From NCBI RefSeq assembly GCF_032118995.1, contig NC_092657.1, positions 7,131,391 to 7,195,390 of the forward strand: DNA of 64,000 nucleotides, given 5' to 3'. How positions within the stretch are numbered: the first letter of the stretch is position 1; each line of letters opens with the position of its first letter. Positions 9,205-40,825 of the stretch are shown here, one piece after another. Source of the stretch: Asterias amurensis (lineage: Eukaryota; Echinodermata; Asteroidea; Forcipulatida; Asteriidae). A model generated the notes under the pieces. That model had not been told where the DNA came from. It was given only the letters and a program-made list of their open reading frames with translations, and ran no database searches. The position numbers were made by a program, and so were the translations under genes.

Positions 9205-9940
9205 ACCAGCTGGAACTGTTTATAACCGGGTTGTTTTCAGATATATTTAGATGCATAAATAACTACGCGCTAGTTACGGGCGATGCGGACACGATCGGTG
9301 AGTCGCCTTTTAACCAAAACGGCATTGAATTGGAATAAAAGAGTATAGTGACTCGTTCCGTTTTAAATCTCGGCTCGGGCCTTTATCGCAGGGTCACGAC
9401 CCTGTCGGTTTTAAACGGCAGTTTAAGAATTCGTCGCTACCCTTTTATTCCCTTTTTAGTGATAAATCCTGTGTCTTTCCGTCCAACGGATCCGCGTACC
9501 TATCTGCTAGCAGCCGGTCGCTGACAAGGATTTCATGGTGTCAGAAGTTCGAGTAAAATCACCCACTTGTATGGTATCCCTCCTTTCTGCTCGCCGGCGG
9601 GAAGGGGGGTAAACAAAACTGTCACATACACACACAGCTGCACATGGATTCCCATTTTTATTAATAACAACATATTTTTCTTCAACTACGATATTCAGTA
9701 ACAAATGCATCATCTAAACCATACCATGAAATATTGGGAAGTTCTTCAACAGAAGTACGTAACATACCGTTATGTTTAAAGCTATGAGTTAACTGGTGTA
9801 AACGTTGACTTGTTTTTTAAACAAACCAGAAGTGTTTTTGCCCATGACAAGGGTGTTTTTTCTTTCATTGTTATCGCGCAACTTTGACGACCAGTTGAGC
9901 TCAAACTTTCATACTCCTTGTTTGAATCTGTTTTAACCAA
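9205..9940. other. Unassigned sequence with a MITE-1 fragment
   Basis: No gene is seen. About 9845-9915 is a short fragment of MITE family 1 (ACAAGGGTGTTTTTTCTTTC). The left limit of the large inverted duplication is near 9940. Confidence 0.4.
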
Positions 9941-10204
9941 GTGCAACTAATTAGTTGCGTGTAAAAGACGAGAAGTAGTCAATAAATTCAAAAAGGGAAA
10001 TTTAATAAGCTCAGTAATAAGCAAAAAAAATAAATTTAACTTAAAGACTTCACAAAGCAAGCCGAACAATCTCATAACATTATATAATATCGTGATTAAT
10101 AATTTTTCATTTGTTACTCGATTTCACGAGCTGTATACAACCCTAATTTTACATGTTGATTGTCGTTAAAAAAAAGATGGTAAATGTTTGACATAAAGAG
10201 ATCT

Positions 10205-10449
10205 GGGCCCAATTTCATAGAGCTGCTTAAGCAAAAATATTTGCTTAAGCAGAAGCATCCTTGCTTAGTAAAATCAGATTACCTGCCAAGACTCCACTCA
10301 ATTGTTATGCTAAGTAAACAACAGCTAAATACCAGTCACAAGCAAGATATATGGCATGACATTTTGGCCAGTAACATGTGTAAAATAAGCGAGCTATTTT
10401 CGTGCTTAAGCAAATTGTTTGCTTAAGCAGCTCTATGAAATTGGCCCCA
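10205..10449. mobile_element. Fold-back MITE with GGGCCCAATTTCATAGAGCT ends
   Basis: Left end GGGCCCAATTTCATAGAGCT then GCTTAAGCA; right end GCTTAAGCAGCTCTATGAAA then TTGGCCCC. About 245 bp and non-coding. It is absent from the matching place in the right arm, so it inserted after the duplication or was lost there. Confidence 0.85.
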
Positions 10450-10549
10450 GGGCTAATTAAGTTTTAAAAATTTACTTAAACTTTTCAACGGGGAGATTTC
10501 CCCAGAATGCCGTTACCTGTTATGGGTAACTCACCACACTAGGGCTAGC

Positions 10550-10800
10550 TTAAATTCGGCTTCTTATTTTCATCTCGGAAAACTTGAGTGAGCGGTAATT
10601 GTTAAAGCTATTCCACATGAATCCACCCAGACGGCTGTATTCGGCATGGTGGAAATAAAGCCCGTTCAGATTGGACGAAAGACAGAACCTGAACCACCAG
10701 CCCCCTGGATACTCATGTGCGCAGTTGCCTACGGCATTGACGTCGTTGTCTTTGTCTTTGGTCGTGAAACCCATTCTCTGGTGGGATTTTAACCCGTCAG
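10550..10800 (-). CDS. Left fibrinogen gene, exon 5 (C-terminal)
   Basis: The acceptor is TATATTTCAG just before 10800 (minus strand). The first two bases complete a Thr codon, and the frame runs [20 protein letters not shown] to MKIRSRI then TAA at 10552-10550. It is three codons shorter at the end than the right copy, which reads on to KPSS. Confidence 0.93.
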
Positions 10801-13800
10801 CTGAAATATAGAAACACGAGGTCATAGTCATAAAACTACAGGTATGAGATATAGGATACAGAGGGGTAAGTATGAATTGGGCTCTTATTTTGCCTAGGTT
10901 ATAACCACAATGCACAAACTGAGAGGATTCTTTTGTGAGAGATGTGAGATAATTCTAACAATCCGACACAGCTTCAGTTGCAGGGCCTATTTGACAGAAG
11001 AGTATGCCGCCACATGAGTACACCAATCACTCTTACCATGTACGTACATGATGAGTCCAACATTAATAGTGTACGTACATAATAACTTCATGTACGTACA
11101 CGATAGGTTCCAAAACTGATCGTGTACCCTCCGTGATAAGTCTAAACAAATATCGTGGATAATAAATACATGATAACTTACTGTGTAAAGTTTACATAAA
11201 TGATAGATCCAAACGTATCATGTACTTATGCGATAAGTCCCAAACGAACATGATGCACGATATGTTATTGTGTACGTACACGATAAGTTAATAGGGTTTA
11301 ATGCGTAACGCAGTAAACCGATTTAACACCAGGAAATATGCATAATTATAGTCAGGTTGCACAGTCGGGGCTATAAGCGGTTGGGATTGTCAGGGCGCAT
11401 TCAGACGTGGTTCCATTGTTCTTTTCAACCAACCAAAGCAATGCATTTGGGGAAAGGGTGCTTGTCTTTCTGGGAACCGTCATTGAATATTCTGCCACCG
11501 AGGAGTTAAGATAGATTGTATAGTTTCGCAAAATTCGGTACCTTCTTGGCAACTCGCTGGAAGTGGGAACCGCATTGAAGAAATCCAAGTGATACCTGAT
11601 GAGGAGGGCGAAGATGGGCGGCTACAGAGAGTGGTGAAGCCGATGGCTTACTAGCCGGGCCAATCGGGTGAGTCGCTACATTTTCAGACCTAATGCTGGG
11701 GCAAGTACAGCCCCAACAGTAACGCTAGTAGGTAACACGAGTACCGTGAATACGGAAAGGTTTCAAACATCTAGTATGTATAAAGGGCCAATAATTGCGA
11801 ACATCCCACAGATTAATAGTCAGGATATTTCACGGCCTTTACACGTAACTCGGGGTATAACGGGCCAACATTCTCAAAGCATGAGTACAGGTACACAAGG
11901 ACAAGAAAGGGCGGACAATCATAATTTTTCTGGCAGCTTGCCGTTTAATATGAAAGTTAGTCAGAGCTTGTGTCAGTCAGGCCAATCAGGAATAAGTAAG
12001 CCTAGTAGTTTAGTGTACAACTTGGCAAACTCTAGTCAATATTCAGGGTATTCCATACATAACAGGGATGGGGCATGTAGTAGGTTAGGAGGGACATCAT
12101 CTTCAATAGAACTGGGTGGTGCCCAACTTTCAAATGCAGGGTGCAAAATAAGTACAGTAGGGAGCAGTAGCATGTTCGGGTCCATTGATTGCACAGCGGG
12201 CTCTTGAAGCATACCGATGGCGAATAACATGCAGCATATGAATTAACCATCAACTCCCTTTAATCCATTTATATCGGTTTGTAGCGAATTGGGCGAGGGC
12301 CTACCGCTAACCTTAAAATTTTTAAGATTATTCATAGCGAGTTTGTGGATTTTGCTGTGATCTTATAAAGAAGAGTGACCCTATAGTAGTACAAATAGCC
12401 TACCGCTAACCTTAAAATTTTTAAAATTATTCATAGCGAGTTTGTGGATTTCGCTGTGATCTTATAAAGCAGAGTGACCCTATATTAGTACAAATAGCGG
12501 TCAAGACAATAATTCTTGCTGGCTGTAAACGAGGGGGGTTTTATAATATGGAAAGATAATAAACACAGGCGTCCAATTACTTCTACACATTACATGGACC
12601 TCTGCATTTTTTGACTTATGTAGCAGTGTATTTGCGAGCTCATCTCCATAGAACACAGAATTATTGAAATATTGTCAGATCGTACGGGGGGATGAGGGGT
12701 AATAAGGGGGGATGGCGCACTTTTAGAATGAGGCAGCAATTAACACCAGTTAGATCATGGGCATAATTGACGATGAATTATGGGCATTGCACGTCACAGC
12801 ACCATGTGTTAATCAAGCTCTAGAACAAAGTGTACATAAAGAATAGAAGGGCAATACCAAGTTTCATTATGACCTTTCGGAATGATTGATCATTATTAGG
12901 CACTAAATGGCCAGCTTCCATAAATCAAGGGGTAGCCTACTGCATAATATTAAAATTAAAGACCTTTGCATTTTCTTCCATTTGTACATACGTATCTGGT
13001 ATTTCATATGTTTAATGAATAGGGTATAGATGGCCTTAGCTTTCGATCCAAACCGGACCTAGTTCAGAGGCATAAAACAAGTACAAACAAATACATATCC
13101 ATTCCTAGAAAAAGAGAGGGGAAATGGATTAAATGAAGAATGAAGCGGGAAAGAAAGAAGCGGGAAAATAACAGCCAATCAAAGTTTCTATTTCAGAAAC
13201 AATTGGTGGCTATGAACCAATACGAGTAGAGTGGCGAGGACAAAGGAGGTTTCATATGAAAGGATGGATTACTGGACCATAAAAGTGGTAAAGGCATTGT
13301 TCGTTAACAATGCAGGGAAACATGAAAGGGTAGAATTAGAGAACAAGTTGCATCATGACGCAATTAACAATGGTCAATTAATAGAGAAAAGCAAGATCAA
13401 AGGTACGATGGTATTAAAAATAGGTATGAGGGACCTGTGGAAAAAAGAAGGGGGGGTCCTTACATGAGATAGTTATTGTAACAAATATATAGGACAACTT
13501 TAAAAAATTAATTTATACTTGAGTTACAGAATATAAACAACATTATAGTTCTCAAGCAGAAGTGAAGTGGGGGTAACGGGAAGTTATTTAACACCAGTGT
13601 TTATGTTTAGTCCAAAGGACTTGACTGTCTTGAGTTGGTGAATCCAGTGTGATTCTCTATGCTTGCAGTTATATTTCATATGTTCATAAATTGCACAATT
13701 GGGAGGATCCCACGGGTAGTTTCATTGTTTCTAAGATGAAAGAGGATTGTAGACGCTTGGACCCTCGGCAAGATTCAAGATGTTCCATTACATTTCCAGT

Positions 13801-16800
13801 GCTGAGCAGTCTGGTTGGTATTTTACCGCCAGTCTGCAAAATATTGAATTATTCGGTTGGGTCCTGGGGCGAATTAGAATAAATCTGCTTTATACTTGTT
13901 ATGTATAAAGAGTTACACGGTTCAATGGTTTGGCGGGAACATTGAATAGGACTGGGTGCGGTACCCAGGGTAAGGCTTATCTGGCTATGCTATCAATATA
14001 CACGTTAAAGCTTTGTTAATTAATTTGTTTTTCTTAGTCGTAATATAGTTTAAGTGTCATCGGTAACAGTAGCAGCTACCATAGCTTAGCAGGGAGGTCA
14101 GTACTAGCTTGAACCTGAAAGCGTTGATTTGCATAGATCAGGTGTACGTTTCCAATATCGGTTGGTTTTTCGTATCTGGCGGTCAACACAGCACTGATGT
14201 TCCATGGCAATGACACGTTGTGTCGTAAAAATGTCGGTACAAAATGTAACGAACAATGGAGGCGGGCTAAACCGTAAAGCTTACGTATATGAACAACAAA
14301 GGCGCATGATTAAAAATTATCAGTTGATCCGGTTATTCAAGTTACAGGGTGTAATTATTGTCAGTGAAGACGAAAATTCGGTCGTTACAAAAAGTAACAA
14401 ACATTATAATGTGGGACTAAACGTACAGAGTATGTACATGAGATGAGAAGACGCATGATTAAAAATGATTGAGTGATCCGGTTATTCAAGTTACAGGGTG
14501 TAATTATTGGCAGTGAAGATAACAATTCGTAAAGTGGTTACAAAAAGTAACAAACATTATATTGTTGGATTAAAATGTAACAGAGCATACACATGAAATG
14601 ACAACATGCATAATTAAAAATAGGTTCAATTACAGGGTGTAATTTTTACAGTGAAGACAAAAATGTTCGATGCAAACGTAGAAGAGTGTGAAGATGAAAA
14701 GAGAAGATGAATGATTAAAAAGTAATCAGACATCTTCATCCGGTTGCAGCATAGCTTGCAGACATACCATATTTGACTTATATGACCTTTATTAAAGTAG
14801 CATAGTAAATGTTTAAAGTATAATCAGCATATGAAGTTCTGCTGTTAAAAGCAGCATTCTTGGTTGCCCTTTTCGGTTATTCTGAGGGTGAGTGAGTTTA
14901 CAACTCACGATGGCAAATTCCCGGGCGTTGCGTATTGGTGATATTTCCTTTAATCAGGAAGGGAATTTGCAAGTAGTTCTAAGATATTCAAAAACGGATC
15001 AAGTGGGTAAAGTTCAATCATTTCTATTGACAGGAATGCCAATACTTCACTGTTTGTACATTGAGGGGGGACCCTATGTCAGCCAGACAAGTTAATCACA
15101 TCTTAAAGTAGGGATTAAGGCCATCAGGTAAACCCCACACCCTTTTCAGTTCATAGTTGCAGGATATGTTTGGGGTTCGGGAGGAACAAATCAAAAGTAT
15201 GGGGAGATGGAAGTCTGGAGCACTTGAATCCTACATTAGGCCAGACTTAATGTTTTCAATTGTCTAAAAGGGTGTAGCTTGTAGCAAGGTCATAAATAAG
15301 CAGTGTAGACAACCGCTTCTTTAATTGGCATATTGCTGTTTAAAGCCATTGGAACCTTTCGGTACAGAAAAAAAAAAAAAAAAAGTTCACAGATTTACAA
15401 ATAATTTACAGGGTTTACAGAAGGTAATGGTGAAAGACTTCTCTTGAAATATTAGTCCATGAAATGCTTTACTTTTTGAGAAAACGGTAAAACAATATAA
15501 ATTCTCGTTAACGAGAATTACGGATTTGTTATAAACACATGTCATGACACGGCGAAACGCGCGAAAATAGGAGTGGGTTTTCCCGTTATTTTCTCCCGAC
15601 TCCGATGTCCGATTGAGCCTAAATTTCCACAGGATTGTTATTTTATATATAAGTTGTGATACACGAAGTGTGGGACTTGGACAATACTTTTTACCGAAAG
15701 TGTATAATGGCTTTAAGATAAATAATCATTTACAAGATTGGTGAATGTTGAGTTGGTTGTTAACAAATTGTGTACAACATTTTCAACTACATACAAGACT
15801 TTGACAAGATAAAATATTGGTCAGAACAGATTACCCAGGCTGTTTTTCTTTGAATTTGTTTTTATACAGATGTGTATCGGGGACAGTATCATTCGCCACA
15901 GCAGCGGCACAGTGGTGGTACAGTGACATGGAAAGGCGTGTCTGGGGCACGCCTGGACGGCTGGAACTAGGCTCAGGAGATACGGCAAAAGGCGAGGTCC
16001 GACGACAATAGTGTTACATCTAAGGACCAAAGATATCTTGAAGGAAAATTCGGGACAGAGTAGACATAGGGTAAAGAGAGCCTAAAGGTAATTAGGAACA
16101 TCCTACCCAACACACGGTTAATTTGGTCAGACATTTTGTTAAGGGTGAAGTATCAAGGTAAAGTTAAAGGAGGGCAGAAAAACGCTGCACTTGGGATTTA
16201 AATATGTATGCAAAGAAGATACTTCGGGAGATGCAAAACGCACCTGTTATAAAACACCCCCATCTCATTAACCCTTCCCGGAAGGTGCGTACTGGCAAGA
16301 CATGATTCATTTGGTTCCATCAAAATTGATCAGACGGGTTGAGGTTCTCCACTTCACACTCGGAGAAAGTTTTATAAAAAATAAAAAAAAATAAAAAAAA
16401 AAAGGGGGGTGTTTGGGCAAATTTTTATATCAAAATTTGCTTTGGCGGTAAGTTTAGGTTGTTCCTATACACAGCCTGTGAGGAAGTGGTAAATTAATTT
16501 ATGTGAATTGATATGGATAAATATGGTGGTAATAAAATGATGTGATTGTATATAAAGAAGTAGATTAATTTGGTACCTTCTTGGCAACTCGCTGGAAGTG
16601 GGAACCTCATTGACCCGGAGTTTTCTCCAGTCAATGAGTGCATTTATAATTATTATAATTGTAATTAGTCTGGTACCTTCTTTGGCAAATCGCCGAGAAG
16701 TGGGAACCTTTGCGGATTGGAAATTTACCGTTCGCAAAGTGAGGAATTGGGACCCTTTGCGAATTGGTCGCAAAGTGTATTATAATGGGAACTGGTATAC

Positions 16801-19800
16801 TTCTTTATGAGTGTGGATATCACTGGATGGAATTAAATAAAGGGAAATCCCTTATATTATTATGAATTGGCGTTTTACCACGGAATTCAGAGTACGGAAC
16901 AAATTAACTCTTGGCAGAGTTCACAACAACAAATCCTTGTGTCTGTGTATATTTATCAGGTGGTAATGTGTACGTACACGATACGAGAGATATTTTGTGT
17001 ATCTTTCGGGCGACCATACGCTTCAGAATCTTTACTATTCCTATTCAGTATAAATTGCTTAAGGCAAGGCATTCTGTAAGTTACCCCTCCTTGGTTGGCA
17101 TTAGAGAGTTTTCGTTTGACAACGGATGGTTCTGGTGACGGTCAGTAGTTTTCAGCCAAACGTTGTCGTTTTCAGCAAAACGCAGATTCATCCGAAGTAC
17201 TTTCGTAGAAATTTAGGGATGACCGTCCTCAAAGCCGACGCATGCGCAGATTATGCCAAATGTCACCATATCCTCCGTAGAACCATTCGTCGTCAAAAAC
17301 GAAAACTCTCTACAAAGGCGCTTCTGATTAAATGTATCACTGCCTTAAAAAGTGAGTTCGTCTTACTTGCATTTCCTGTGTAACCCTCCACTCGCAGCAT
17401 GTAGTTCTCACTCGCATCAGCGACGGTGAAGGAGTCATACTTGGCATACCCGGTAACCTGATCGAAATCTTGAACATCCACGCGTAGTTGGTACTCGCCC
17501 TGAGCGGTCAGAAGGTGCAAGTTGTCATTACCGAGCCAAAACTCTCCATCTACATTCCCAAAGCCACGGCTGTAGCTGGCATAGTCCAAAGAGAAATCTA
17601 CACTGCCGTCCTGGCGCCGCTGGAACACCTAAAAGTTCACACAATATATTTAGAAGTTGTAAGTTTGTATTGAATTTGCGACGTCATTCATTCACTACAG
17701 CGTGTTATCTTACCGTCCATCCACCACCGTCTGTTTCCATATCACAATACACCTGGAAAGCCTGACTGGAGCGTAGAGGTCGTACCATGTACACACCGCT
17801 CACCGACGCACCGATCGCAAGAATATCAGAACAATCCCCTGGGAACACATCTGTTGAGGTAGGGAAAAAACAAAACATAAACCCTCAATTACATAACTGC
17901 TAAAATTTTAACTGGACTTTAGGTGTTTTGGAAGAAACTAAGGGATTTTCGGTCCTGTATTGCTTTGATTGGACGCTCCGGAGCTTTAAATTGAGCCTGC
18001 CATTGAGATAGAATAGCCCTCATCTGTAACAGGCCCTTTTCGCGGGCCTAGAAACCTGTACCCAAACTTCATTATAATACTGACTTCAAAACTCATTTTA
18101 AACCTGACACTGGAAACGAGTTAATAACTGAAAAGAAAAAGAAAATTTGCTGTTAAGTTCTTGAGATCTGGTCCAACTTTTTGTCGACCCATAAATAAAG
18201 TTCAAACAGGGGACATGGTAAACCCAATTTTAATATTCAATGATCATCGGGTCTATAACTAAAAACTACTTCCGGTTGACCCTCAACTAAAGGTCAACAT
18301 GGGGTGACGGTAACCAGAGTTCAACCGTCATTGCTCAAAGGTTCTGGAACTAAAAAGAAACTGATAATGGCGTATGTGCTTCATGAGATAATTAGGTCCC
18401 ACTTTCGTTTGACCAGAAACACCCGAGTTCAATCTTCAATACTTATGGGTTTTAAAACTGAAAGGAAATTTAACTATTTGGGTGTATAGTGCTTGAAATT
18501 TGTGTTCGACTTCCGGTTAACCCGGAAGTAAAGGTCAATTTAGGGTCATAGTATCCCAAGGCTAATCTTCAATGATCAAGGGGCTCAAAACTGAAAAAAA
18601 AAATTGTACATTTAGTTTATGAGATAACTAATGTTTCTCTCCTGGTTGACCCGGAAGTAAAGGTCAAAGTGGAGTTACGGTAACCAAGTCAACTTTCAAC
18701 GCTCAAAGGGTCAAGAACTGAAAATAAATTGAAGATCGGTTGTGTAGTTTCTCCAGATAATTGTCCCACTTCCGGTTGACCCGTAAGTAAAGGTCAACAT
18801 GGGGTTAGGCGAACCAAAGTTCGATATTCAATGCTCAAAGAATCTATTACTGTAAAGAAATTGAAAATCGGTTGTGCAGCTCTTGAGATATGATCCCATT
18901 TCCGGTTGACTCTGAAGTCACATGGGGTCACGGTTACAAACAAGTTTTAAAATCGGCTGGGTATTTTTTGAAGATATGATGCTACAAAGATTGAGTATTT
19001 TACACATTTAAATGAAGATCTGGTGGTTATTATAATAATAAGCTTTGAATTACAATAATTTGAGACCCAATGACGTCACAGTAACGCCAATGTGTTTGTC
19101 ATACCATCTTCATACAAACCAATCCGTTAATGCTGTAACTTAACCCAATCCTATACGCTTACCTCCTTCAGTCGTGGTCGCAAATTCATCAGTTGCATCA
19201 GAATCGTCAGTTTCGGAGGTATCTACAAAAAAAAGTAAAAGAGGACTTTAAAGTCACCTGTAAGTGGTACTTCGACAAAATAAACCTTTTGTCACCAAGA
19301 TTATATGTTTTTAAGAGTGAAATGTGAATAAACAATTAGCTAAGGTTCTAAAAAATAGCTCTCATTTTATTCACTAATTTAAGATTAGGCCCAGACTCGT
19401 TAGGGCGCCGACCGATGACGATCGAGGGGTGGGACCGAGATGAAATACATCACTATCCAACCGCCATTTTGGACGAATCCAACGCGAAATTCAAATATTC
19501 ATCTTCGCAAAAACATTCGTCACTCTGTAAGAGCAGGAATACGAAGTGCTTCCTAATGCTACTCTCACACTAGGGAGAATGGAAATTTGCTTACGAACGG
19601 AAATATTTAACAATCGTTCAAACTTCGCAACATTCGCCGTGTCCTCGTAAGCGTTGGTAACAAATTCGGTACGTTCACACGTCGTTCTCCACCTCCTTAT
19701 GAAATCGGTCACTTTATGCTGCTCTCACCACACGGCAAATATGCTAGCGAATATGCTAACGAACTCCTTATTTGACAATCGCTCAAACTTTGCAACATTC

Positions 19801-22800: not shown

Positions 22801-24390
22801 ATTCGCCATCGATTTTCGTAAGCATTGCCCAGCCATGGGTACTGTTGGTAAAGCGTGCGTATTATGCGTTAGATATTGGTTAGGAGAAGCTTAAGGACGA
22901 CCGAGAACATTATTCACTATCAAATCGCAACTTTGGGGCGATTTCATCGCGAATTTCAAATATTCATGTTCGCAAGAATATAGTGTGAGAGTAGCATCAA
23001 GTTACGCTCACACTGGGGAGAATATGCTTAGCGAATGTGATTACGAACGGAAATATTAAACATCACTCAAGCTTCGCAACTATTATGTCGTGTCTTCGTA
23101 AGCGTTGGTAACAAGTTCGGAACGTTCACAAATTATTCCCCACCTCATTACGAAGATCGGTCAATTTAGAAACCGGTTTAATTTGTGAACACGGTTATGA
23201 AGATACGGCGAATGTTGCTAAGTTTAAGCGATTTTCGAGAATTTCGTTCCGTTTGCATAAAATTATTTGACTTGTGAACGTAACATTCGCTAGCATATTC
23301 TCCCCAGTGTGAGAGTAGCATAAACTCAGCACATTATTATGAAGACGGTTTTTCGCCATCGATTTACGTAAGCATTGGTAAGAAATGGTATTGTTGGTAA
23401 ACATGCAGTATTAATGCGTAAGATATTGATAGGTTGAGGGACGACCGAGAACACTATGAACTATCCAATTACAACAATTTCAAATATTCATATTCGCAAG
23501 ATATTCACCACAGCGTGAGAGTAGCATTATAGAGTCTATTCTCTGACTTAAACTATTTCCCTCATAGTTTATGTAACAGTTTCAATGAAAAAGAATTCTA
23601 ACAACTATAGGTAGTCTTATTTCGTATGCGTATGTCAAACGACGGTTTGTCACATTTTAGAACTATTTTACAATATTTTTAAGTATATGGGCATACTTTC
23701 GTGCAACATTATCGAGTACAACCTTAATATATTCCTAGAGTAATCTTTCTCATCTGAAAAATGTTTAAGTAAATTGAAAGATAAAATTTGTCCAGCTATG
23801 TTTTGTTGCCCATGATATCTTTCAGTTTTGAAAGATAGGAATTTGTCAATTGAATTGTTAAAACTGTAGATTGTGTTCGAATCTACACTTTAGTGTAGAT
23901 TCGGAGCGAAGTGTAGATTCGTAAAAATAATCTACACTTTCAACATTAGAGTGACGTCACGGAAATAGTCTACAATTAGGGAGTTGCGACAGAACTTACC
24001 ATTAGTAATGAGTTTCACCAAGGCAGACACTGAGACCTCTAACTCTTCCACTTTGCTTCTTGTTTCTTCCAGCTCAGATGTTATCTTTTCTCGATTATTA
24101 GAAGTGGCCACCTGTAACTCGTCTACTTTACCTCTAGTGGCTTCCAGTTCAGTTGAAACAGCTTCTTGAGTTTCAGTCATTGAATCTTTCAGCTCTCCCA
24201 CTTGTTGTATTATGTTCCTTACTTCACCGTTAACCAGATCTAGGTATTCTATGAGTATGCCCTTTAGCTTGTCTACAATTACGTCTTGATCACACGAACC
24301 CGTTGCCTGATTGCTGGAAGATGCACTTTGTCGTGCAGCTATAGACTTCATGATCATAACGATCAAGAGTGAACGGATCAACAACCCCAT
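10550..24390 (-). CDS. Secreted coiled-coil fibrinogen-domain protein, left copy
   Basis: Five coding exons on the minus strand (24390-24000, 19222-19163, 17850-17714, 17628-17367, 10800-10550) sum to 1101 bp, giving 366 residues plus stop. All introns are GT-AG and the phases agree. The order is: hydrophobic signal segment ([20 protein letters not shown]); a charged, heptad-rich coiled coil to about residue 129; a short acidic Ser/Thr linker; then a full fibrinogen C-terminal domain with RDCSD-type start (here GDCSD), [18 protein letters not shown] (calcium loop), [12 protein letters not shown] and FSEMKIRSR. Such proteins (ficolin/FREP/fibrinogen-like A type) are secreted, trimerise through the coiled coil and bind glycans or acetyl groups. 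The gene is the inverse twin of the one at 28008-32501 and is transcribed away from it. The reading frame looks intact despite a 6.6 kb intron 4. Confidence 0.9.
12299..12496. repeat. 99-bp tandem duplication inside the fossil element
   Basis: The block starting GCCTACCGCTAACC at 12299 is repeated at 12398 with few changes (for example AAGATTATT against AAAATTATT). Non-coding. Confidence 0.9.
14225..14740. repeat. About 150-bp tandem repeat (3-4 decaying copies) in the fossil element
   Basis: GCATGATTAAAAATNAT followed by CCGGTTATTCAAGTTACAGG and TGTAATTATT recurs at about 14303, 14452, 14605 and 14710, with later copies shorter and more diverged. Confidence 0.8.
15340..15716. mobile_element. 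MITE family 2 copy, inserted in the fossil element
   Basis: Left end TTTAAAGCCATTGGAACCTT, right end CCGAAAGTGTATAATGGCTT. Internal blocks GTTCACAGATTTACAAATAA and GAAATGCTTTACTTTTTGAG match copies at 35593, 49433 and 49703. It is nested, so it is younger than its host element. Confidence 0.85.
17367..17628 (-). CDS. Left fibrinogen gene, exon 4
   Basis: The exon begins [20 protein letters not shown] and ends EGYTGNA plus one base. The donor is GTAAGA (complement at 17361-17366). It is 262 bp, the same length and phase as its twin at 31142-31403. Confidence 0.95.
17714..17850 (-). CDS. Left fibrinogen gene, exon 3 (start of fibrinogen domain)
   Basis: 137 bp. It encodes [15 protein letters not shown] through [11 protein letters not shown]. 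The acceptor follows CTACCTCAACAG and the donor is GTAAGA. The twin exon at 30920-31056 reads [15 protein letters not shown]. Confidence 0.94.
18150..18970. repeat. About 130-bp tandem repeats in intron 2 of the left fibrinogen gene
   Basis: CTTCCGGTTGACCCNNAAGT followed by AAAGGTCAACATGGGGT recurs at about 18270, 18398, 18509, 18638, 18768 and 18899. The same array, inverted, fills intron 2 of the twin (29830-30680), so it is older than the duplication. Confidence 0.9.
19163..19222 (-). CDS. Left fibrinogen gene, exon 2 (acidic linker)
   Basis: A 60-bp exon between the coiled coil and the fibrinogen domain. It encodes [19 protein letters not shown], flanked by an AG acceptor and a GTAAGC donor. 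It is too short for ordinary open-frame searches and is supported by phase agreement and by its twin at 29591-29650. Confidence 0.9.
19247..23530. mobile_element. Nested MITE complex in left intron 1
   Basis: A stack of fold-back elements absent from the 1.2 kb twin intron. It includes a MITE-3 fragment (19247-19410); pieces of the CTACTCTCACAC family (MITE 4) at 19553-19870 and 22615-23527; inverted blocks rich in CAGAAAAGCAGAAAAGCAG at 19915-20190 and 22080-22450; a split GGGCCCAAT element around 20525-21840; and a complete MITE 3 at 21083-21672. The outer ends read AATGCTACTCTCACAC and GTGAGAGTAGCATT. No transposase gene is visible. Confidence 0.75.
21083..21672. mobile_element. MITE family 3, full copy 1
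   Basis: The ends TTAAAGTCACCTGGAAGTGG and TTTCCAGGTGACTTTTAA frame about 590 bp. Inside is a second inverted pair (ACGTCAATCGAGGCAGACTT / AAGTCTGCCTCGATTGACGT), with a central segment that can be read [14 protein letters not shown] second copy lies at 42577-43155 and a partial one at 19247. Confidence 0.88.
24000..24390 (-). CDS. Left fibrinogen gene, exon 1 (signal peptide and coiled coil)
   Basis: 391 bp from ATG (24390) to a GTAAGT donor. It encodes the signal segment, a cysteine (SCDQD) that could link chains, and the coiled coil [16 protein letters not shown]...[15 protein letters not shown]. It is two codons longer than the twin ([10 protein letters not shown] against DQEVEKLK). Confidence 0.95.
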
Positions 24391-24495
24391 TGTGCTTAGC
24401 TAACACTTCAACAACAAACCTACACGAGTTCTTGACACTGATCCTCTGCGTACAGATGTTCGCAGTGAAATGAGCAAGAACTTGCCAAACCGTTA

Positions 24496-24502
24496 TTTTA
24501 TA
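24496..24502 (-). promoter_or_regulatory. TATA box of the left fibrinogen gene
   Basis: TATAAAA on the minus strand, about 105 bp upstream of the start codon. It is conserved in position and surroundings with the twin promoter. Farther upstream is a purine run with several GGAA cores (GGAAAAGAAACAGGAAACCG). Confidence 0.7.
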
Positions 24503-24714
24503 TGTTTGAGGTAATGGTTCAAACGATTCAATCGTTGTTATCCTCCCTATATATCTACAAGGCTAAACCGAAAACGGAAAAGAAACAGGAAACCGGAACC
24601 AGAAGGAGCCTCGTCCTCACAGCTCCGGATGCAACTACTAGGACTCAATAAATAGCTTAGCAGAAGAAACCTTGAAGATATGTAAAATCTAGTTCAGTCA
24701 GTTCACTCCACCAC

Positions 24715-24870
24715 AAACAAGCTAAAGCCGTGTCCAATTTGGCATCCACGGCTACAGCTACGGCTACGGCTGTTGTTAAGGGTGTTGCTAAGGACATCCT
24801 ATATCTCAACGCACAATGATGCGGAAATCTAGCTGTAGCCATAGCTGAAGCCAATTCTCACACGGCCTAA
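24715..24870. mobile_element. CTACGGCTACAGC-rich repeat at the inner end of the left arm
   Basis: The block GCTAAAGCCGTGTCCAATTT then GGCTACAGCTACGGCTACGG recurs inverted at 27545-27690. It looks like a dispersed MITE that was already present before the inversion, or that mediated it. Confidence 0.6.
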
Positions 24871-25196
24871 CTGTCTGCATGGATATAAAGATCTTGCAGT
24901 AACTTGTAGTCCATGTCTCCCATCAGCTATCAATGTTGTAAACTACACTTATGTAAATGCTAATAATGCTTATGTTAATAACAAAATAAAACGTGTTTGC
25001 TTTTTCATTAAGTAATTCAAGAGCTGGCAAAAAAAATATCGCCACCCCCTCGATAACCCCCTTATTTTGTGTCATTACAAAGTGTCCACTGCCTTTAAAT
25101 CTTACAATAATATTTTTTAGCAAATACTGGTGACCACAGAGGCCAAGCATAAGTCTGTCTAGGTTTTCATTGAGAATCACACATATTATTGGTGAC
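24871..25196. other. Spacer between the arms, left part
   Basis: No gene is seen. AAGTGTCCACTGCCTTTAAA near 25079 is a terminal scrap of MITE family 1. Confidence 0.4.
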
Positions 25197-25200
25197 CAGT

Positions 25201-25500
25201 GGAGCATCACAAAGAATTACTAAATCAGCCCTTTTAATAGACAGTAACCCCATTGCCCGTGGAGCATCACAAAGAATTACTAAATCAGCCCTTTTAATAG
25301 ACAGTAACCCCATTGCCCGTGGAGCATCACAAAGAATTACTAAATCAGCCCTTTTAATAGACAGTAACCCCATTGCCCGTGGAGCATCACAAAGAATTAC
25401 TAAATCAGCCCTTTTAATAGACAGTAACCCCATTGCCCGTGGAGCATCACAAAGAATTACTAAATCAGCCCTTTTAATAGACAGTAACCCCATTGCCCGT
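25201..25500. repeat. Five identical 60-bp tandem repeats
   Basis: Five copies without a single difference. Each starts GGAGCATCACAAAGAATTAC and ends CCCCATTGCCCGT. The unit length is divisible by three and has no stop in at least one frame on each strand (a GASQRITKSALLIDSNPIAR unit on plus, a GLLSIKRADLVILCDAPRAM unit on minus). No start context or splice site convinces me that it is translated. It sits in the spacer between the two divergent fibrinogen promoters. Confidence 0.97.
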
Positions 25501-26320
25501 GTACAAAAACATTTCCTAGGTGTGGTGCAATAGATGGTGACATTTGCCACTGAAATACTCAACCAATCAGAGAAGGTCTGAACGTACCAGGCGGTACAGT
25601 GACACAATCCCTTCCCTGGATATAATTATTAGCATATAATTGGAACTGCAAAGATTTAAATAATACCAAGGGTTGCAAAGATATAAACTAAACCAAGGTT
25701 TGTAAGAAACCTCCTCAGTACAGTCAACATTAACAATACCCTGGGGGAAACAAAGGGCAGATAATTGAGTGAAGTTAACTGCAATATAAGTGTTTGGGCC
25801 ATGAAAATACCAAGTGTGTAATAAAGTTGTCGCGAGCTGGTATTGTAGTTTTATGAATGACCATGTAAATAAGAAATGAGTTTCTCTGGCCGCCGCCTCT
25901 TTTTGTTTTTACCCCCCCCCCCCCGAAATAAAAACGGAGTAATTCAGGAGTGGGGAATAAGTTCCTTATTGTTTGCCTTAAGAATGTATTCCCTACGACT
26001 CTTTTCACCACACTGCAATACAACAGCCGTTCGTAGTAGTATTCTAAAATTCTACAAAAAGCATGCATCGCATGTGATGAGCCAAGCAGAACATGACGTG
26101 AGTGAGCCTGGCGTCTTTACTATTTTTTCTACCTCCTTAAATCGTGATACAAAATTATGCTCGTGTTACATTTAATATTGCACTTTTTTTCTCGAATTAT
26201 TTCACAATCCAGTCGCTTGCAAATTTGTTGACTTCAGCTTCGTATTGTGTAACACGCTAGCTGAATTTAAAAAAAATATATAAAACGCCTGGAAAGTGCG
26301 CCTAGCTTTCTGTGCATTTT
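25501..26320. other. Spacer between the arms, middle part
   Basis: No gene is seen. It contains a C-run at about 25912-25924 and AT-rich sequence. Confidence 0.35.
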
Positions 26321-26324
26321 GGTT

Positions 26325-26562
26325 TCCCATTGTTTATTTTTTTCGCACCAAATTACGTGGGTCAGCGATATTTAGAATATCGGTCATCTTTGAAAAAAAT
26401 ACCTAAAATTTGGAAAATACTAAAAATACAAGCGCCCTTTCTAGTGTATGGCTTGAACATAGTTACATCGTGTATGCTATAGAAAGTAACGGATAAGTAA
26501 GTATGAGTTGTTATCATCGAAGCCTGTTCACACGTAATTTGGTGCGAACAAAAATAATGGGA
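26325..26562. mobile_element. Small MITE with TTCGCACCAAATTACGTG arms
   Basis: A perfect 18-bp inverted pair TTCGCACCAAATTACGTG (26342-26359) and its complement (26531-26548), with weaker pairing outward (CCCATT...AATGGG). Non-coding. Confidence 0.7.
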
Positions 26563-26564
26563 AA

Positions 26565-27544
26565 AACAAACCCAACTGGTCATGTGTGGAGTTTTTTTTT
26601 TGTGTTGTTTATTCATGCATAACTTTACCTGCGGTTTCATAATACAGATCTGGTTAATAGGTAAGTGATAACGCTGTTGTTTCCAGATCCACAAGCTCTA
26701 TTGGCGTGGAGGATTATTGTTACCCTAAGCATATATATTAACTATTGGAAAGCTCCTAAGGTTGTTCAACAAGGCCCGATAAGCTTCCGTACACTGAAGG
26801 TCGACGGCTCCACAATTTGCTGCTCAGGACGATGCACCCATATCCTTAAATAGTACTCAGTAAATTCCTCTTCCCTGGCTTTTATATTGGCTATGAAACT
26901 TCATAATGCGATTGCAAAGGGGTTAATCGCTCGTTTATTTTACTTGTTCAAGACATGCCCACCTGAAATGACCTATGACATTTTAAAGTGGGGCTAAAGA
27001 ATGCTCTGAAGTATAAAGTTATTACATTTTTCTAGTAGATGGAGTCCATAGGACACAAGAACAAAATATAACGAGTCTCTTCTTAACGTTCAAACATGGT
27101 AAACATGTTTTTTCTCCGAAACACTCCAAGCCAAAATTCTGAAGAACGCAAGGTCATACAAACCAACGCGGCAAATGAATCATGACGTCATCGGCGCTAT
27201 TTGATATGGAATAGTGCGCCCTCAATTGGTCACAGCTGGAGAACTGTGCACAAACCATATGGGAAGTATAGCCATTGACGTCAAGGGGTCAATGCATATC
27301 ATTATCATACGTAACCCATATCCGCCGACCTACGTCAAAATCCGTATCCGGAAACAAATCGCTATACAAACGCCGGGACAAACGGATTTTCCCGTAGAAG
27401 ATTTGTTTGGGTTTTTTTTCTTCATAGTTTAACCCCTTTGGCCGTCTAAAGACCAGAAATGTATCCCACAATCTTTTGCTGCAATACATTCTTTAGTCAC
27501 ACAGGTTTCGCTGAGTTTCATGACGATTTTGATCAACGTTTTGG
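26565..27544. other. Spacer between the arms, right part
   Basis: No gene is recognised. Short open frames only. Confidence 0.35.
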
Positions 27545-27895
27545 CTGAAAAATTACGGCGGCATCAGCTACGGCTAAAGCTAGATTTCCACGTCATTACG
27601 CGTTGAGGTATAGGACGTCCTTAGCAACACCCTCAGCTACAGCCGTAGCCGTAGGTGTAGCAAATTGGACACGGCTTTAGCTTGTTGGTGGTGGAGTGAA
27701 CTGACTGAAATAGATTTTACATATCTTCAAGGTTTCTTCTGCTTATCTTTTTATTGAATCCCGAGCTGTGAGGACGAGGCTCCTTCTGTTTCCTGTTTCA
27801 GTATGTTTTCCGCTTCCGATTCACCAGCAGGTTATCTTTGTAGATCAACGGGGAGATTAACAAAGTTTGAATCGTTTGAACCATTACCTCAAACA

Positions 27896-27902
27896 TATAA
27901 AA
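27896..27902 (+). promoter_or_regulatory. TATA box of the right fibrinogen gene
   Basis: TATAAAA, 106 bp upstream of the ATG at 28008. The surrounding sequence (GAACCATTACCTCAAACATA before it, TTCTTGCTCATTTCACTGCG after it) is nearly identical to the left promoter, which supports function. Confidence 0.72.
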
Positions 27903-28007
27903 TAATGGTTTGGCAAGTTCTTGCTCATTTCACTGCGAACATCTGTACGCAGAGGATCAACGTCAAGAACTCGTGTAGGTTTGTTGTTGAAGTGTTAGCT
28001 AAGCACA

Positions 28008-28392
28008 ATGGGGTTGTTGATCCGTTCACTCTTGATCGTTATGATCGTGAAGTCTATAGCTGCACGACAAAGTGCATCTTCCAGCAGTCAGGCAACGGGT
28101 TCTTGTGACCAAGAAGTAGAAAAACTGAAGGCTATGCTAATAGATTACCTAGAACTGGTTAACGCTGAAGTAAGGTACACACAACTACAAATAGAAAATC
28201 TGAAAGATTCAATGACTGAAACTCAAGAAGCTGTTTCATCTGAACTGGAAGCCACTAGAGGTAAAGTAGACGAGTTACAGGTGGCCACTTCTGATAATCG
28301 AGAAAAGATAACATCTGAGCTGGAAGAAACAAGAAGCAAGATGGAAGAGTTAGAGGTCTCAGTGTCTGCCTTGGTGAAGCTCATTACCAATG
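28008..28392 (+). CDS. Right fibrinogen gene, exon 1
   Basis: Signal peptide and coiled coil. The frame ends ...VKLITN plus one base, then the donor GTAAGT at 28393. Confidence 0.95.
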
Positions 28393-31300
28393 GTAAGTTT
28401 TCTCAAACTCCTTGATGGTTAAGTGTTATTTGTTGGTTGTCCTATATTCAACTATACTTGGAGAGATACAACATGATTAGCTACTTTTGGGCAATCGTAT
28501 TTCTGAACTTTTTCAGAGGCCCCTTTGGACGACTGGTGGTTTCAGTTTCGAAATAACAATAGCTACGATGGCGTTTACGAAGAGGCAATTTGGTAGAGCA
28601 CCGGTATATATGAAGATTGGTAACATAGGGCTAGATAGCTCAGTCGGTAGAGCTCCTTCAGCATGTTAAGAACAAGTCACTTTAGTGACAGCTGTGACCG
28701 ACCAATTGGTTTAAAAAAAAAAACATGACTGGCAGGACCAGTTATTTTAGTTTACCCTGTCATGGTGCATCTGTCAACGCCTCAAAGTTGAATTGCAGAC
28801 ACTGGCACCCAGTTAAGCCTGTGGGTTTGAGAAATACAGCTGGTTTGTCCATCAGTGCCTGAATTGGAGATTGCTGCACCTATACATTTGTTTGATGATA
28901 CAAAAGTGTTTAAAATAATGTTCTCCCAATAATTACTATCGATGTCTCCTTAGGATGCTTATAGTATCCGTAGAAAGTTAGAAAATACATAATGAAAGTA
29001 ATGTTTCCACATTCTGAACTCAATTACGATATGCAAGACCCATAATGACTGCAATCACCAAGCACCGAGTCTATGCGCGCAAAATATAGGTACGCGGGTA
29101 CTTCCACCACTGTGTTTACTACGGAAGCCCATTAGTGCCACGTTGCGTTCCTCTTAAACGTTGTAGTGTTTCTCTTTCACGTGGTAGTGTTTATCTTTCA
29201 CCTGCATGGTCACCGCCACTTATTAACTGGCGGCCGCCACTAAATTAACAGGCGGCCGCCACTAAATTAAAAGGCGGCTGCCACTTAATAACCGGCGGCC
29301 GCCACTTAATAACCGGCGGCCGCCAGTTAATTAAGTGGCAGCCGCCGGTTATTAAGTACTTGTGAATGGGAAACACTACCACGTGAAAGAGAAACACTAC
29401 AACGCTAAAGAGAAACGCAACGTGGCACTTATGGGCTTCCGTGGGTTACAGCTCCTCAGCAAGTAATTATTGGAGCTTTCTATTATGATTAGTTTTGTGC
29501 AAATCTGTGAGGACATTGACTTCATTTTATAAAGGATTAAACAATTGAACAGACCCGAATTACTCGGTATGTTTTGAATTTTGTTTGTAGATACCTCCGA
29601 ACCTGACGATTCTGATGCAACTGATGAATTTGCGACCACGACGGAAGGAGGTAAGCGTATAGGATTGGGTTAAGTTACATCATTAACGGATTGGTTAGTA
29701 TGACCATGGTATGACAAGATTATTGTGACGTCATTGGGTCTCGAGTTATTGTAATTCAAAGCTTATTATTATAATAACCACCAGATCTTCATTTAAATGT
29801 GTAAAACACTCAATCTGTATAGTATCATATCTTAAAAAAATACCCAACCGATTTCAAAACTTGTTTGTAACCGAGACCCCATGTTGACCTTTACTTCAGA
29901 GTCAACCGGAAATGGGATCATATCTCAAGAACTGCACAATCGATTTTCAATGTCTTTGAGCATTGAATATCGAACTTAGGTTCGCCTAACCCCAGGTTGA
30001 CCTTTACTTACGGGTAAACCGGAAGTAGGACCATTATCTCGAGAAACGACACAATCGAATTTCAATTTATTTTCAGTTCTTGACCCTTTGGGCGTTGAAA
30101 GTTGACTTGGTTACCGTAACTCCACATTGACATTTACTTCCGGGTCAACCAGGAGAGAAACATTAGTTATCTCATAAACTACATGTACAATTTTTTTCAG
30201 TTCTGAGCCCCTTGATCGTTGATGATTAGCCTTTGGAAACTATGACCCTAAATTGACCTTTACTTCCGGGTTAACCGGAAGTCGAACCAAAATTGCAAGC
30301 ACTATACACCCAAATAGTTCAATTTCCTTTCAGTTTTAAAACCCATAAGTATTGAAGCTTGAACTCGGGTGTTACCATGGCTCCGTGTTGATCTTATTTC
30401 TGGTCAAACGAAAGTTTGACCTAAATATCTCATGAAGCACATACGCCATTATCAGTTTCTTTTTAGTTCCAGAACCTTTGAGCAATGATGGTTGAACTCT
30501 GGTTACCGTCACCCCATGTTGACCTTTAATGAGGATCAACCGGAAGTAGTTTTTTTTTAGACTCGATGAGCATTGAATATTGAAATTGGGTTTACCATGT
30601 CCCCTGTTTGAACTTTATTTATGGGTCGACAAAAAGTTGGACCAGATCTCAAGAACTTCACAGCAAATTTTCTTTTTCTTTTCAGTTATTAACCCGTTTC
30701 CAGTGTCAGGTTTAAAATGAGTTTTGAAGTCAGTATTATAATGAAGTTTGGGTTCAGGTTTCTAAGCCCGCGAAAAGGGCCTGTTACAGATGAGGGCTAT
30801 TCTATCTCAATGGCAGGCTCAATTTAAAGCTCTGGAGCGTCCAATCAAAGCAATACAGCAGTAATTTTAGCAGTTATGTAATGTAGGGTTTATTTTTTGT
30901 TTTCTCCCTACCTCAACAGATGTGTTCCCACGGGATTGTTCTGATATTCCTGCGATTGGTGCGTCGGTGAGCGGTGTGTACATGGTACGACCTCTACGCT
31001 CCAGTCAGGCTTTCCAGGTGTATTGTGATATGGAAACAGACGGTGGTGGATGGACGGTAAGATAACACGCTGTAGTGAATGAATGACGTCACCAATTCAA
31101 TACAAATTTACAACTTCTAAATATATTGTGTGAACTTTTAGGTGTTCCAGCGGCGCCAAGACGGCAGTGTAGATTTCTCTTTGGACTATGCCAGCTACAG
31201 CCGTGGCTTTGGGAACGTAGATGGAGAGTTTTGGCTCGGTAATGACAACTTGCACCTTCTGACCGCTCAGGGCGAGTACCAACTACGCGTGGATCTTCAA

Positions 31301-32501
31301 GGTTTCGATCAGGTTACCGGGTATGCAAAATATGACTCCTTCACCGTCGCTGATGCGAGTGAGAACTACATGCTGCGAGTGGAGGGTTACACAGGAAATG
31401 CATGTAAGACGAATTCACTTTGTTTAGGCAGGATATAGATTCAATTATCAGCAACCCCTTTATATTGAGTTTTCGGTCTTTACGGCGGATGGTTCTGCCA
31501 AGGAAAATTGGTACATTTGGCGTTATCTGCGCATGCGTCGGCTTTGGGTCTAGTGCCCCTCAATTTCTACGAAAGAACTGCGGATGAATCTGCGTTTTGC
31601 TGAAAACGACAACGTTAGGCTGAAAACTAATCACCGTCACCAGAACCATCCGTCGTCGGAAACGAAAACTCTCAAATGCCAACAAAGGAGGGGCAACTTA
31701 CAAAATGCTTTAAATAAAGCATTTCATAATGCCGCCACATTGGTACACAAAATCTCGTTCTTATCGTAAATGTACACAATAACTTATCGTGCATCATGTT
31801 CGTTTGGGACTTATCGCGTAAGCACATGACAAGTTTGGATTTATCTTTTCTGAACACATTAAGTTATCATGTATTTATTATCCACGCTTTTTGTTTAGAC
31901 TTATCACGGAGGGTACACGATCAGTTTGAAACTTATCGTGTACGTACATGAAGTTATTATGTACGTACACTATTAATGTTGGACTCATCGTGTACGTACA
32001 CGGTAAGAGTGATTGGTGTACTCATGTGGCGGCATACTCTTCTGTGAAATAGGCCCTGCAACTGAAGCTGTGTCGGATTGTGATGTGAGAATTATCTCAC
32101 GTCTCTCACATACAATACCCTCTCAGTGTGTGCATTGTGGTTACCTTGGCAACATAAGAGCCAAATTCAATATTACTCCTTCCCATCCTATATCACGTAC
32201 TTGTACTCATACAACTATGACCTCATGTTTTTATCCTTCAGCCAACGGGTTAAAATCCCACAACTACATGGGCTTCACGACCAAAGACAAAGACAACGAC
32301 GTCAATGCCTTAGGCAACTGCGCACATGAGTATCCAGGGGGCTGGTGGTTCAGGTTCTGTCTCGCATCTAACTTGAACGGGCTTTATTTCCATCATGCCG
32401 ATCTCAGTAGTCGGGGAGTAACGTGGAATGCCTTTGCAAATTATCGCTCACTCAAATTTTCTGAGATGAAAATTAGAAGCCGAGTTAAGCCTAGCTCCTA
32501 G
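28008..32501 (+). CDS. Secreted coiled-coil fibrinogen-domain protein, right copy
   Basis: Five coding exons (28008-28392, 29591-29650, 30920-31056, 31142-31403, 32242-32501) sum to 1104 bp, giving 367 residues plus stop, all GT-AG with consistent phases. Residues 1-20 are a signal segment, 33-128 a heptad coiled coil with SCDQE near its start, 129-149 an acidic Ser/Thr linker, and 150-367 the fibrinogen domain. The domain has C155, [12 protein letters not shown], the calcium-loop motif [22 protein letters not shown] and [11 protein letters not shown] at the end. The family is secreted and binds microbial glycans or acetylated ligands in innate immunity; that role here is inferred. It is transcribed away from the left twin across a 3.6 kb start-to-start gap. 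AATAAA at 32867-32872 is a plausible poly(A) signal. Confidence 0.93.
28626..28672 (+). mobile_element. tRNA-like SINE head fragment
   Basis: TAGCTCAGTCGGTAGAGC is a textbook tRNA A-box arm, but no B box (GGTTCGANTCC) follows. It is therefore a truncated SINE or tRNA relic in intron 1, not a functional tRNA. Confidence 0.55.
29121..29442. mobile_element. Fold-back MITE with GC-rich core in right intron 1
   Basis: The arms ACGGAAGCCCATTAGTGCCA... and ...TGGCACTTATGGGCTTCCGT pair over about 80-100 bp. Within each arm is GTAGTGTTTCTCTTTCACGT. The core has about five tandem blocks of GGCGGCCGCCACTTAATAAC. It is absent from the left twin intron. Confidence 0.88.
29591..29650 (+). CDS. Right fibrinogen gene, exon 2
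   Basis: A 60-bp linker exon encoding [19 protein letters not shown]. Acceptor TTGTTTGTAG, donor GTAAGC. Confidence 0.9.
29830..30680. repeat. About 130-bp tandem repeats in intron 2 of the right fibrinogen gene
   Basis: The inverse counterpart of 18150-18970. The words TTGACCTTTACTTCCGGGT and CCGGAAGT recur at about 130-bp steps. Several copies carry private changes. Confidence 0.9.
30920..31056 (+). CDS. Right fibrinogen gene, exon 3
   Basis: It opens the fibrinogen domain ([20 protein letters not shown]) and ends DGGGWT at a GTAAGA donor. Acceptor CTACCTCAACAG. Confidence 0.95.
31142..31403 (+). CDS. Right fibrinogen gene, exon 4
   Basis: Encodes [20 protein letters not shown] through [10 protein letters not shown] plus one base. 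Donor GTAAGA at 31404. Only 85 bp of intron precede it. Confidence 0.95.
31750..32005. repeat. TGTACGTACACGATAAGT-type repeats in right intron 4
   Basis: The palindromic word GTACGTAC with CGATAAGT or CATGATAAGT neighbours recurs irregularly. It is matched by 11035-11290 in the left intron 4. Confidence 0.75.
32242..32501 (+). CDS. Right fibrinogen gene, exon 5
   Basis: The acceptor is TTATCCTTCAG. The spliced codon gives Ser, then [20 protein letters not shown] to RSRVKPSS and TAG. It holds the calcium loop and the last cysteine pair. Confidence 0.95.
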
Positions 32502-32949
32502 TGTGGTGAATAACTCATAACAGGTTACGGCATTCTGGGAAAATCTCCCAATTGAAAAGTTAAAGCCCCTTTTTAAGGTAATATGCTTATGTAAAAAAAA
32601 TCCTCCTTTTTATACGACAATCAACATGGTAAAATTAGGATTGTATACAGCTCGTAAAATCAAGTAATGAAAAGTGAATGATCACAATTAATGCACAATG
32701 TTACGATATCAGTGTTTGACTTGCTTTGTCCTCAAGTTAAATTAATTTTGTTATGCTAATTATATCTGAGCTAATTGAAGTTCACTTTTTTATTTTTCAA
32801 AAGGCTTGTTGACTACTTATAGTCTTTTACACAAATTATCTAGCTATAAACTGTAAAACATTTTCCAATAAACCAATTGAATCTGAACAAGACTTCAGGT
32901 CTAACGCTATTCACGGGTATCTGAAGGCACACAAGTTTGTGGAACAACG

Positions 32950-33095
32950 GTATCTTTTTCTTTCATTTTTTTTTTTCTTGCAACTTTGATGACCAAATTG
33001 AGCGCAAATTTTCACAGGTTTGTTATGTTTATGTACAGGGATACACCAAGTGTGGTTTTTGATCGTTATACCAAACGTGTCCAGTGACTTGAAGT
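32950..33095. mobile_element. MITE family 1 fragment
   Basis: GATGACCAAATTGAGCGCAA, TTTTCACAGGTTTGTTATGT and ACCAAACGTGTCCAGTGACT match one half of MITE family 1. It marks the outer edge of the right arm. Confidence 0.7.
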
Positions 33096-33591
33096 CAGCT
33101 AGTTATTTAAATCTCACTAATAAATCTTGAGAAAGTACTGTTTGCTCTGCCTTTTCGGGCATTTGAAAGATTGGTTGTGTTCTTGAAACTATAGAGGGAA
33201 ACAGAAATAAAGCTGAAATGAACGGACCGCACGAGAATGAGTTAAGCTTTGACTTATTTCCGTTATCTCTGATAACAAAAATCATTGCCCAAAATCCTAT
33301 CACCTTGACCTTTTTTAAGGTGAGAAAATAGTTTCTTCACACCTACTGAAATATTTTTCAAACAAGTAAATTTTGTTCCTTTTCTTGTTCTGGTTCTGAG
33401 TGTTTGAAACAAGTCAAAGTTTGCATCAGTTAAGTCAATGCTATAAACATAGTATGTTATACGTACTTCTCTAGGAGAACCTCTCAATATTTCATATTAT
33501 GGTTTTAATGATGCATTTGTTACTAAGTATCATAGTTCAAATAAATATGTTGTTATTGATGAAAATGGGAATCCCTGAGCAGCTTTTGATG

Positions 33592-40540: not shown

Positions 40541-40825
40541 AAAGGTATTTGAAAACTGTTCTTCGAACTGTTCTTGTGATGAACTTCTAAAGTGTTCCGC
40601 AAATATCTGCGGCAGTGAGAGGATAGTACAAAAATTGAAGGGAAACATAAAGGTTTTAGCGACTTCAATCTAATAAACTCTGTTTAGAGAAACCTGTTTA
40701 AATGTTTTAAAATATATTATGTACACTGAATTTTGGGTCGGTTTGAAATGACCAAAACATTGATAAATTCGTTAACAACCTAATTTGTGTAAAGAGCCAA
40801 CGCAATTGCATACATTAGCATCAAT

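Follow-up and report, generated by a model that had tools for sequence, protein, structure and literature searches.

Inverted pairs of fibrinogen-domain genes and exchange between their arms in the sea star Asterias amurensis

A head-to-head pair of ficolin-like genes

We analysed a window of 64,000 nucleotides from the sea star Asterias amurensis (NC_092657.1, positions 7,131,391 to 7,195,390; unless stated otherwise, coordinates below are those of the window). It encodes two genes, here named A and B, that face away from each other and are inverted paralogues coding for ficolin-like fibrinogen-domain proteins (Table 1). The original prediction described two complete five-exon genes in very unequal arms, with exons 2 to 4 of equal length, and it was right on these points. 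Both genes are present, with GT-AG ends at all eight introns, and exons 2, 3 and 4 measure 60, 137 and 262 nt in each. The distance from ATG to stop is 13,841 bp in A versus 4,494 bp in B. Exon 1 has 391 nt in A and 385 nt in B, and exon 5 has 251 and 260 nt. The predicted difference of three codons at the end holds as a net gain of nine bases in B, made up as follows: exon 5 of B has one codon fewer inside and four more at its end. The final four residues result from the loss of a stop codon that is retained in two other copies of this gene (B1 and B2, see below).

The inverted homology consists of five blocks with 74–89% identity, from 24852/27560 out to 9636/33584. Their E-values (0 to 9e-35) show that the likeness of A and B is not due to chance. 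Between these blocks, the cores of intron 1 showed no similarity at E 1e-3. The unequal length of the arms results from intronic insertions, including a repeat of 5.67 kb in intron 4 of gene A. This insert is a high-copy dispersed repeat: a query of 801 bp had 1389 candidate matches, and the 40 that were scored all had at least 93% identity. Its longest open frame (189 aa) matched no Pfam family at E 0.01. Intron 1 of gene B contains a palindromic repeat (29121–29442), within a part that also aligns to the copies B2 and B3.

The profile of the C-terminal fibrinogen globular domain (PF00147) matches both proteins with scores well beyond its curated threshold (E 7.1e-73 in A, 4.5e-74 in B). Judged by eye, they begin with a hydrophobic, signal-peptide-like segment followed by a coiled-coil-like stretch; matches to Pfam coiled-coil families were below the cut-offs of those families. 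Exon 2 codes for an acidic linker, after which comes the fibrinogen domain. The best PDB matches of this domain were 2d39 and 4m7f, and its closest solved relatives are ficolin-1 and FIBCD1. The calcium site of FIBCD1 includes Asp393 and Asp395, and the adjacent disulfide is formed by Cys401 and Cys414 (PMC3908420). The equivalents of these four residues align and are identical in A and B, a likeness to ficolins and FIBCD1 that adds to the structural matches. The S1 acetyl pocket of FIBCD1 is described as Tyr405, His415, Tyr431, Ala432 and Trp/Tyr443 (PMC3908420). Two of these five are kept in A and B (Tyr405 and an aromatic residue at 443), and His415 is replaced by Leu. At positions 431/432, A has Arg-Leu and B has gap-Ser, which places the putative pocket loop among the parts that differ between the two genes. 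Neither protein has the S1 pocket that marks the acetyl-binding lectins with a fibrinogen-related domain (ficolin, FIBCD1, TL5A), and a classic N-acetyl specificity is doubtful for them. They also differ from ficolins in the collagen-like stem, since neither translation contained a Gly-X-Y repeat or a match to a Pfam collagen family. No immunoglobulin family was found in A or B by Pfam at E 0.01, i.e., there was no sign of an N-terminal domain of the immunoglobulin superfamily (IgSF). The two proteins may be secreted, oligomeric, ligand-binding lectins of innate immunity.

Four gene pairs and the patches exchanged between them

We searched for protein B in the genome (491,506,623 bases in 23 contigs) and scored 111 of 711 candidate places, which makes the copy counts lower bounds. 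Matches with more than 48% identity were confined to four sites, all on contig 10, and at every one of these gene A is on the minus strand and gene B on the plus strand, head-to-head. The array spans about 283 kb, with exon 1 of A recurring every 76–95 kb. The window pair is unit 4 (A4 and B4), and units 1–3 were read and annotated in part. The four A copies have five intact exons each. B2 and B4 are intact, B1 is without exon 1 in the stretch read, and B3 is broken (its exon 1 is one base longer and its exon 3 is 32 nt shorter, so that the frame is not kept). A rhodopsin-type G-protein-coupled receptor (GPCR) gene (window 4066–5145, +) is also repeated through the array, in six copies with 95–100% protein identity at 6.85–7.14 Mb. 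One of these has an internal TGA, and two of the six, 28.6 kb apart, are identical (the window copy and contig 10, 7106880–7107959, +).

In each of the four units the A type can be told from the B type, so the inverted duplication took place before the pair was amplified. Between A and B, exon 1 differs at 24–31 sites, versus 1–15 among A copies and 4–8 among B copies. In exon 5, A1, A3 and A4 differ from the B copies at 35–39 sites and among themselves at 1–3. This separation in every unit, with differences of 22–28% in unconverted noncoding stretches, contradicts the recent duplication that had been proposed. The proposal that one copy collects inserts was partly right. The intron 4 insert is present in A4 and, as a piece with 98% identity, in A1, whose intron 4 (6,577 bp) is of comparable length; the four A copies also have a longer intron 1 (4.6–11.0 kb) than the three B copies having this intron (0.9–1.2 kb). 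However, the insert is absent from A2 and A3, which have the empty site.

We aligned eight copies in the blocks of exons 2–5 and seven in the block of exon 1. The divergence between A and B is a mosaic: its mean is 1.7–1.8% in exons 3 and 4, 2.5% in intron 3, and 5.6% in intron 2, and it rises to 22–28% over the 160 columns that open intron 4. The peak is 40%, in an upstream stretch of 60 columns (27803–27862), where misalignment is possible. Divergence within A and within B follows a different course along the sequence. Fixed differences between A and B tell the same: there is one in the 399 sites of exons 3 and 4 taken jointly, none in intron 3 (Table 1), and one in the 60 sites of exon 2, versus 32/1269 in intron 2 and 48/312 at the start of intron 4. 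Run tests gave values below 0.05 in eight of the 16 A/B pairs for the block of exons 2–4, and in seven of the 16 for exon 5. These values were corrected within each block only, with floors of 0.012 and 0.016. Since the permutation test on the spacing of fixed differences is approximate (gapped columns were excluded from the counts, not from the null), we prefer the counts of fixed differences per feature.

A direct case of exchange is A2, the A gene of unit 2. It contains a bounded patch of B type of about 230 nt, with A-type sequence on both sides, running from about nt 151 to about nt 387 from the start of exon 5, i.e., beyond the stop codon. Inside the patch, 46–48 of 220 sites differ from A1, A3 and A4, and only 4–5 of 217–221 differ from the four B copies. 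To its left, A2 differs from A4 at 3/150 sites and from B2 at 14/150; to its right (200 columns), the values are 3/184 and 46/181. The palindromic element resembling a miniature inverted-repeat transposable element (MITE), found just 3' of the other A copies, is missing within the patch. A topology splitting A from B is uninformative for this tract, as it also fits A2 placed beside the B clade, and we replaced it by tests joining A2 to each A copy. Inside the patch, joining A2 to any single A copy was 147–150 log units worse (approximately unbiased, AU, test, p at most 6.5e-8), and in the 5' flank the cost was 1.2–12.2 log units (AU p 0.078–0.255). Interlocus gene conversion is recognised by a bounded, non-reciprocal tract of donor type in flanks of recipient type. 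The exon 5 patch of A2 has these features and, read from its sequence, is such a conversion. The reading frame of A2 stays open, and the putative ligand-pocket loop that it encodes has the B form.

A further patch is common to A2 and B3, which belong to different units. At the end of intron 2 the 284 sites compared between them are free of substitutions, with one gap, although either copy differs from the remaining six at 13–15 sites. Keeping A apart from B in the tree of this region costs 55 log units (AU p 6.6e-9). One of the segments used in the topology tests corresponds to alignment columns 1400–1850. The two patches and the mosaic divergence support the gene conversion suggested by the original prediction.

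Table 1. Coordinates, in the window, of the gene pair and its associated features
Feature	Position	Strand	Remarks
Gene A of unit 4 (A4), whole gene	10550-24390	-	366 aa; PF00147
Gene A, exons 1-5	24000-24390, 19163-19222, 17714-17850, 17367-17628, 10550-10800	-
Gene B of unit 4 (B4), whole gene	28008-32501	+	367 aa; PF00147
Gene B, exons 1-5	28008-28392, 29591-29650, 30920-31056, 31142-31403, 32242-32501	+
Upstream region of A, homologous to that of B	24391-24852	-	TATAAAA about 112 nt before ATG
Upstream region of B	27560-28007	+	TATAAAA about 112 nt before ATG
Spacer between homologous arms	24853-27559		60-bp minisatellite at 25199-25501, 5.1 copies
Inverted block 1	24852-23972 / 27560-28419		86.5% identity
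Inverted block 2	19240-17046 / 29573-31731		88.9% identity
Inverted block 3	11287-10464 / 31760-32576		85.4% identity
Inverted block 4	10172-9959 / 32607-32832		74.5% identity
Inverted block 5, outermost of the inverted duplication	9815-9636 (A side) / 33407-33584 (B side)	- / +	83.0% identity
Homogenised segment (exon 3, intron 3, exon 4)	B 30920-31403; A partner 17367-17850	+ (B)	Fixed differences: exon 3 1/137, intron 3 0/85, exon 4 0/262
B segment matching the A2 patch	32392-32628	+	Partner in window A: 10645-10153
B segment matching the A2/B3 patch at the end of intron 2	30563-30833	+
Insert in intron 4 of A	11293-16963		5,671 bp counting one flanking TAAT copy
Palindromic MITE-like element just 3' of A	10180-10475		In A1, A3, A4; absent from A2 and B

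Weighing the explanations

We give a probability of about 80% to a history made of an old inverted duplication, a later tandem amplification to four units, conversion between A and B, and growth of the arms by mobile elements. The inverted duplication would have given rise to genes A and B, which diverged with a promoter of their own each. The head-to-head pair would later have been amplified in tandem, alongside the repeated GPCR gene. Because homologous A and B sequences lie near each other in both orientations, patches of one gene may be copied into the other during repair. Such conversion would keep exons 2–4 nearly alike, an effect strongest in exons 3 and 4 and the intron between them (intron 3), whereas the central part of exon 1 and the greater part of exon 5 remain distinct. 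It would also yield chimeras such as A2, in which the N-terminal parts are of A type and the C-terminal loop is of B type, and which may be expressed and have altered binding. Mobile elements landing in introns would make the arms differ in length.

Some observations weigh against this history. Separate A and B clades were not rejected by topology in exons 3–4 (AU 0.415), because there are few variable sites in these exons. In the block of the upstream region and exon 1 only one of the 12 A/B pairs had a significant run, and the likeness of the core promoters may therefore be due to selection. In the 3' flank of the A2 patch, a tree with A2 beside a single A copy is 4.8 log units worse (AU p 0.013), a weak hint that A2 may not be sister to one single A copy there. 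Finally, the evidence comes from one assembly of one individual, with units 1–3 read in part.

A single inverted duplication without any exchange, in which selection on the protein keeps exons 2–4 alike, could account for the low ratio of nonsynonymous to synonymous divergence in exon 4 (dN/dS 0.16) and for the conserved fibrinogen core. It is nevertheless highly improbable. The synonymous divergence of the window pair falls in the same places (0.12, 0.08, 0.03 and 0.09 in exons 1 to 4, versus 0.37 in exon 5), and constraint on the protein gives no reason for intron 3 to be as little diverged as its neighbouring exons, nor for the bounded patches of A2 and of A2 and B3. Crossing-over among units, rather than conversion between A and B, has a somewhat better chance of having produced the mosaic, but still a small one. 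A1 and A4 have a common intron 4 insert and intron 2 type, yet exon 1 groups A3 with A4, which indicates that like copies exchange sequence as well. However, A and B are in opposite orientation: a single crossover between them inverts the stretch in between and is unable to give a short B patch flanked by A sequence. Moreover, exon 5 of the B copies contains no reciprocal A patch.

Alleles of outbred marine animals can reach 94–99% identity, which is the identity of the units in many blocks, and one could thus suspect that allelic copies or haplotypes were joined in tandem by the assembler. We give very little weight to such an artefact. The four units are structurally different and lie on one chromosome, and cannot be two haplotypes of one locus; the closest unit changes along the sequence; and there are six copies of the GPCR gene versus four pairs. 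A published assembly of A. amurensis was built from HiFi reads with hifiasm and purge_dups and has 491.53 Mb in 22 chromosomes (PMC10625585). It matches the genome that we searched, and its haplotigs were purged, leaving 1.05% of duplicated BUSCOs (PMC10625585). Allelic misassembly is thus unlikely.

The original prediction also suggested that the spacer is a shared control region driving both genes. The divergent arrangement and the homologous upstream sequences would fit this idea, which we consider very unlikely. In bidirectional promoter pairs the start sites are within about 1 kb of each other, whereas the ATGs are here 3,617 bp (unit 4), 8,067 bp (unit 3) and 11,573 bp (unit 2) apart, and the spacers of the other units are longer and internally duplicated. 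A TATAAAA motif precedes each of the window genes, which therefore have each a promoter-like sequence of their own, and there was no sign of a single common element. This motif lies 111–112 nt before the ATG in six of the seven copies having exon 1, the exception being A1.

Neighbouring features and relation to known systems

Other features were found in the window and in the genome. Two neighbouring C-type lectin genes or exons (40793–41347 and 45267–45851, +) have 75% DNA identity. A second rhodopsin-type GPCR open frame is found at 53925–55223 (-; PF00001, E 6.8e-25). An inverted repeat at 59549–60275 and 60852–61558, perhaps a mobile element, has arms of about 700 bp that are 88% identical and about 580 bp apart. 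A reverse-transcriptase-like fragment is present at 58791–59207 (-; E 1.4e-5, below the Pfam cut-off). Long minisatellites are present at 1440–3250 (unit of 44 bp), 37381–37789 (69 bp), 52665–53803 (22–23 bp) and 62167–62420 (28 bp). The scan of the whole window with Rfam gave no family at the gathering threshold. On nuclear contig 5 there are two full-length COX1 matches (658874–660214 and 675294–676634), 16 kb apart, which are probably either mitochondrial DNA inserted in the nucleus or a misassembly. The COX1 on contig 23 translates well under the echinoderm mitochondrial code, AAA standing for Asn in GGFGNW, and the tRNAs ahead of it (Tyr-, Ala+, Leu-, Asn-, Gln+, Pro-; called with bacterial settings, which may miss some) are ordered as expected for a sea star.

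In the Y chromosomes of mammals, palindromic gene arms are kept alike by gene conversion. The locus described here resembles them in having inverted paralogous arms with exchange between arms, but its arms are old and mostly divergent, the exchanged patches are short, and the pair is amplified in tandem. Among echinoderms, it recalls the Sp185/333 (SpTransformer) genes of the purple sea urchin, also an immune-type cluster in which genes point both ways and segments are duplicated, and for which gene conversion has been discussed (PMC5103432). Those genes are unrelated to A and B, small, and made of two exons. Their pseudogenes are described as almost absent (PMC5103432), whereas two of the four B copies are broken. 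In the snail Biomphalaria glabrata, the fibrinogen-related proteins (FREPs) are reported to owe their diversity to gene conversion and point mutation (PMC12074976). Like them, A and B encode fibrinogen-domain proteins subject to gene conversion, here seen in an assembled genome. Unlike A and B, in which no such domain was found, snail FREPs have IgSF domains (PMC7588048). Among the open-licence papers listed by our searches, none was seen to describe the array, or an exchange of this kind in fibrinogen-domain genes of sea stars.

The locus is a compact, naturally occurring example that allows one to tell apart how old an inverted duplication is and how its arms have exchanged sequence. The exchange moved a putative ligand-pocket loop between two immune-type proteins and left the frame open. 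One may tentatively go further, although we regard this as rather unlikely, and see in the head-to-head layout a germline cassette exchanger. A and B would be kept as distinct donors, and conversion within and between units would repeatedly move the C-terminal pocket segment, creating new lectin-like chimeras, e.g., A2, that vary among individuals. Should other animals carry different chimeras, sea stars would be shown to shuffle their pattern-recognition proteins in the germline.

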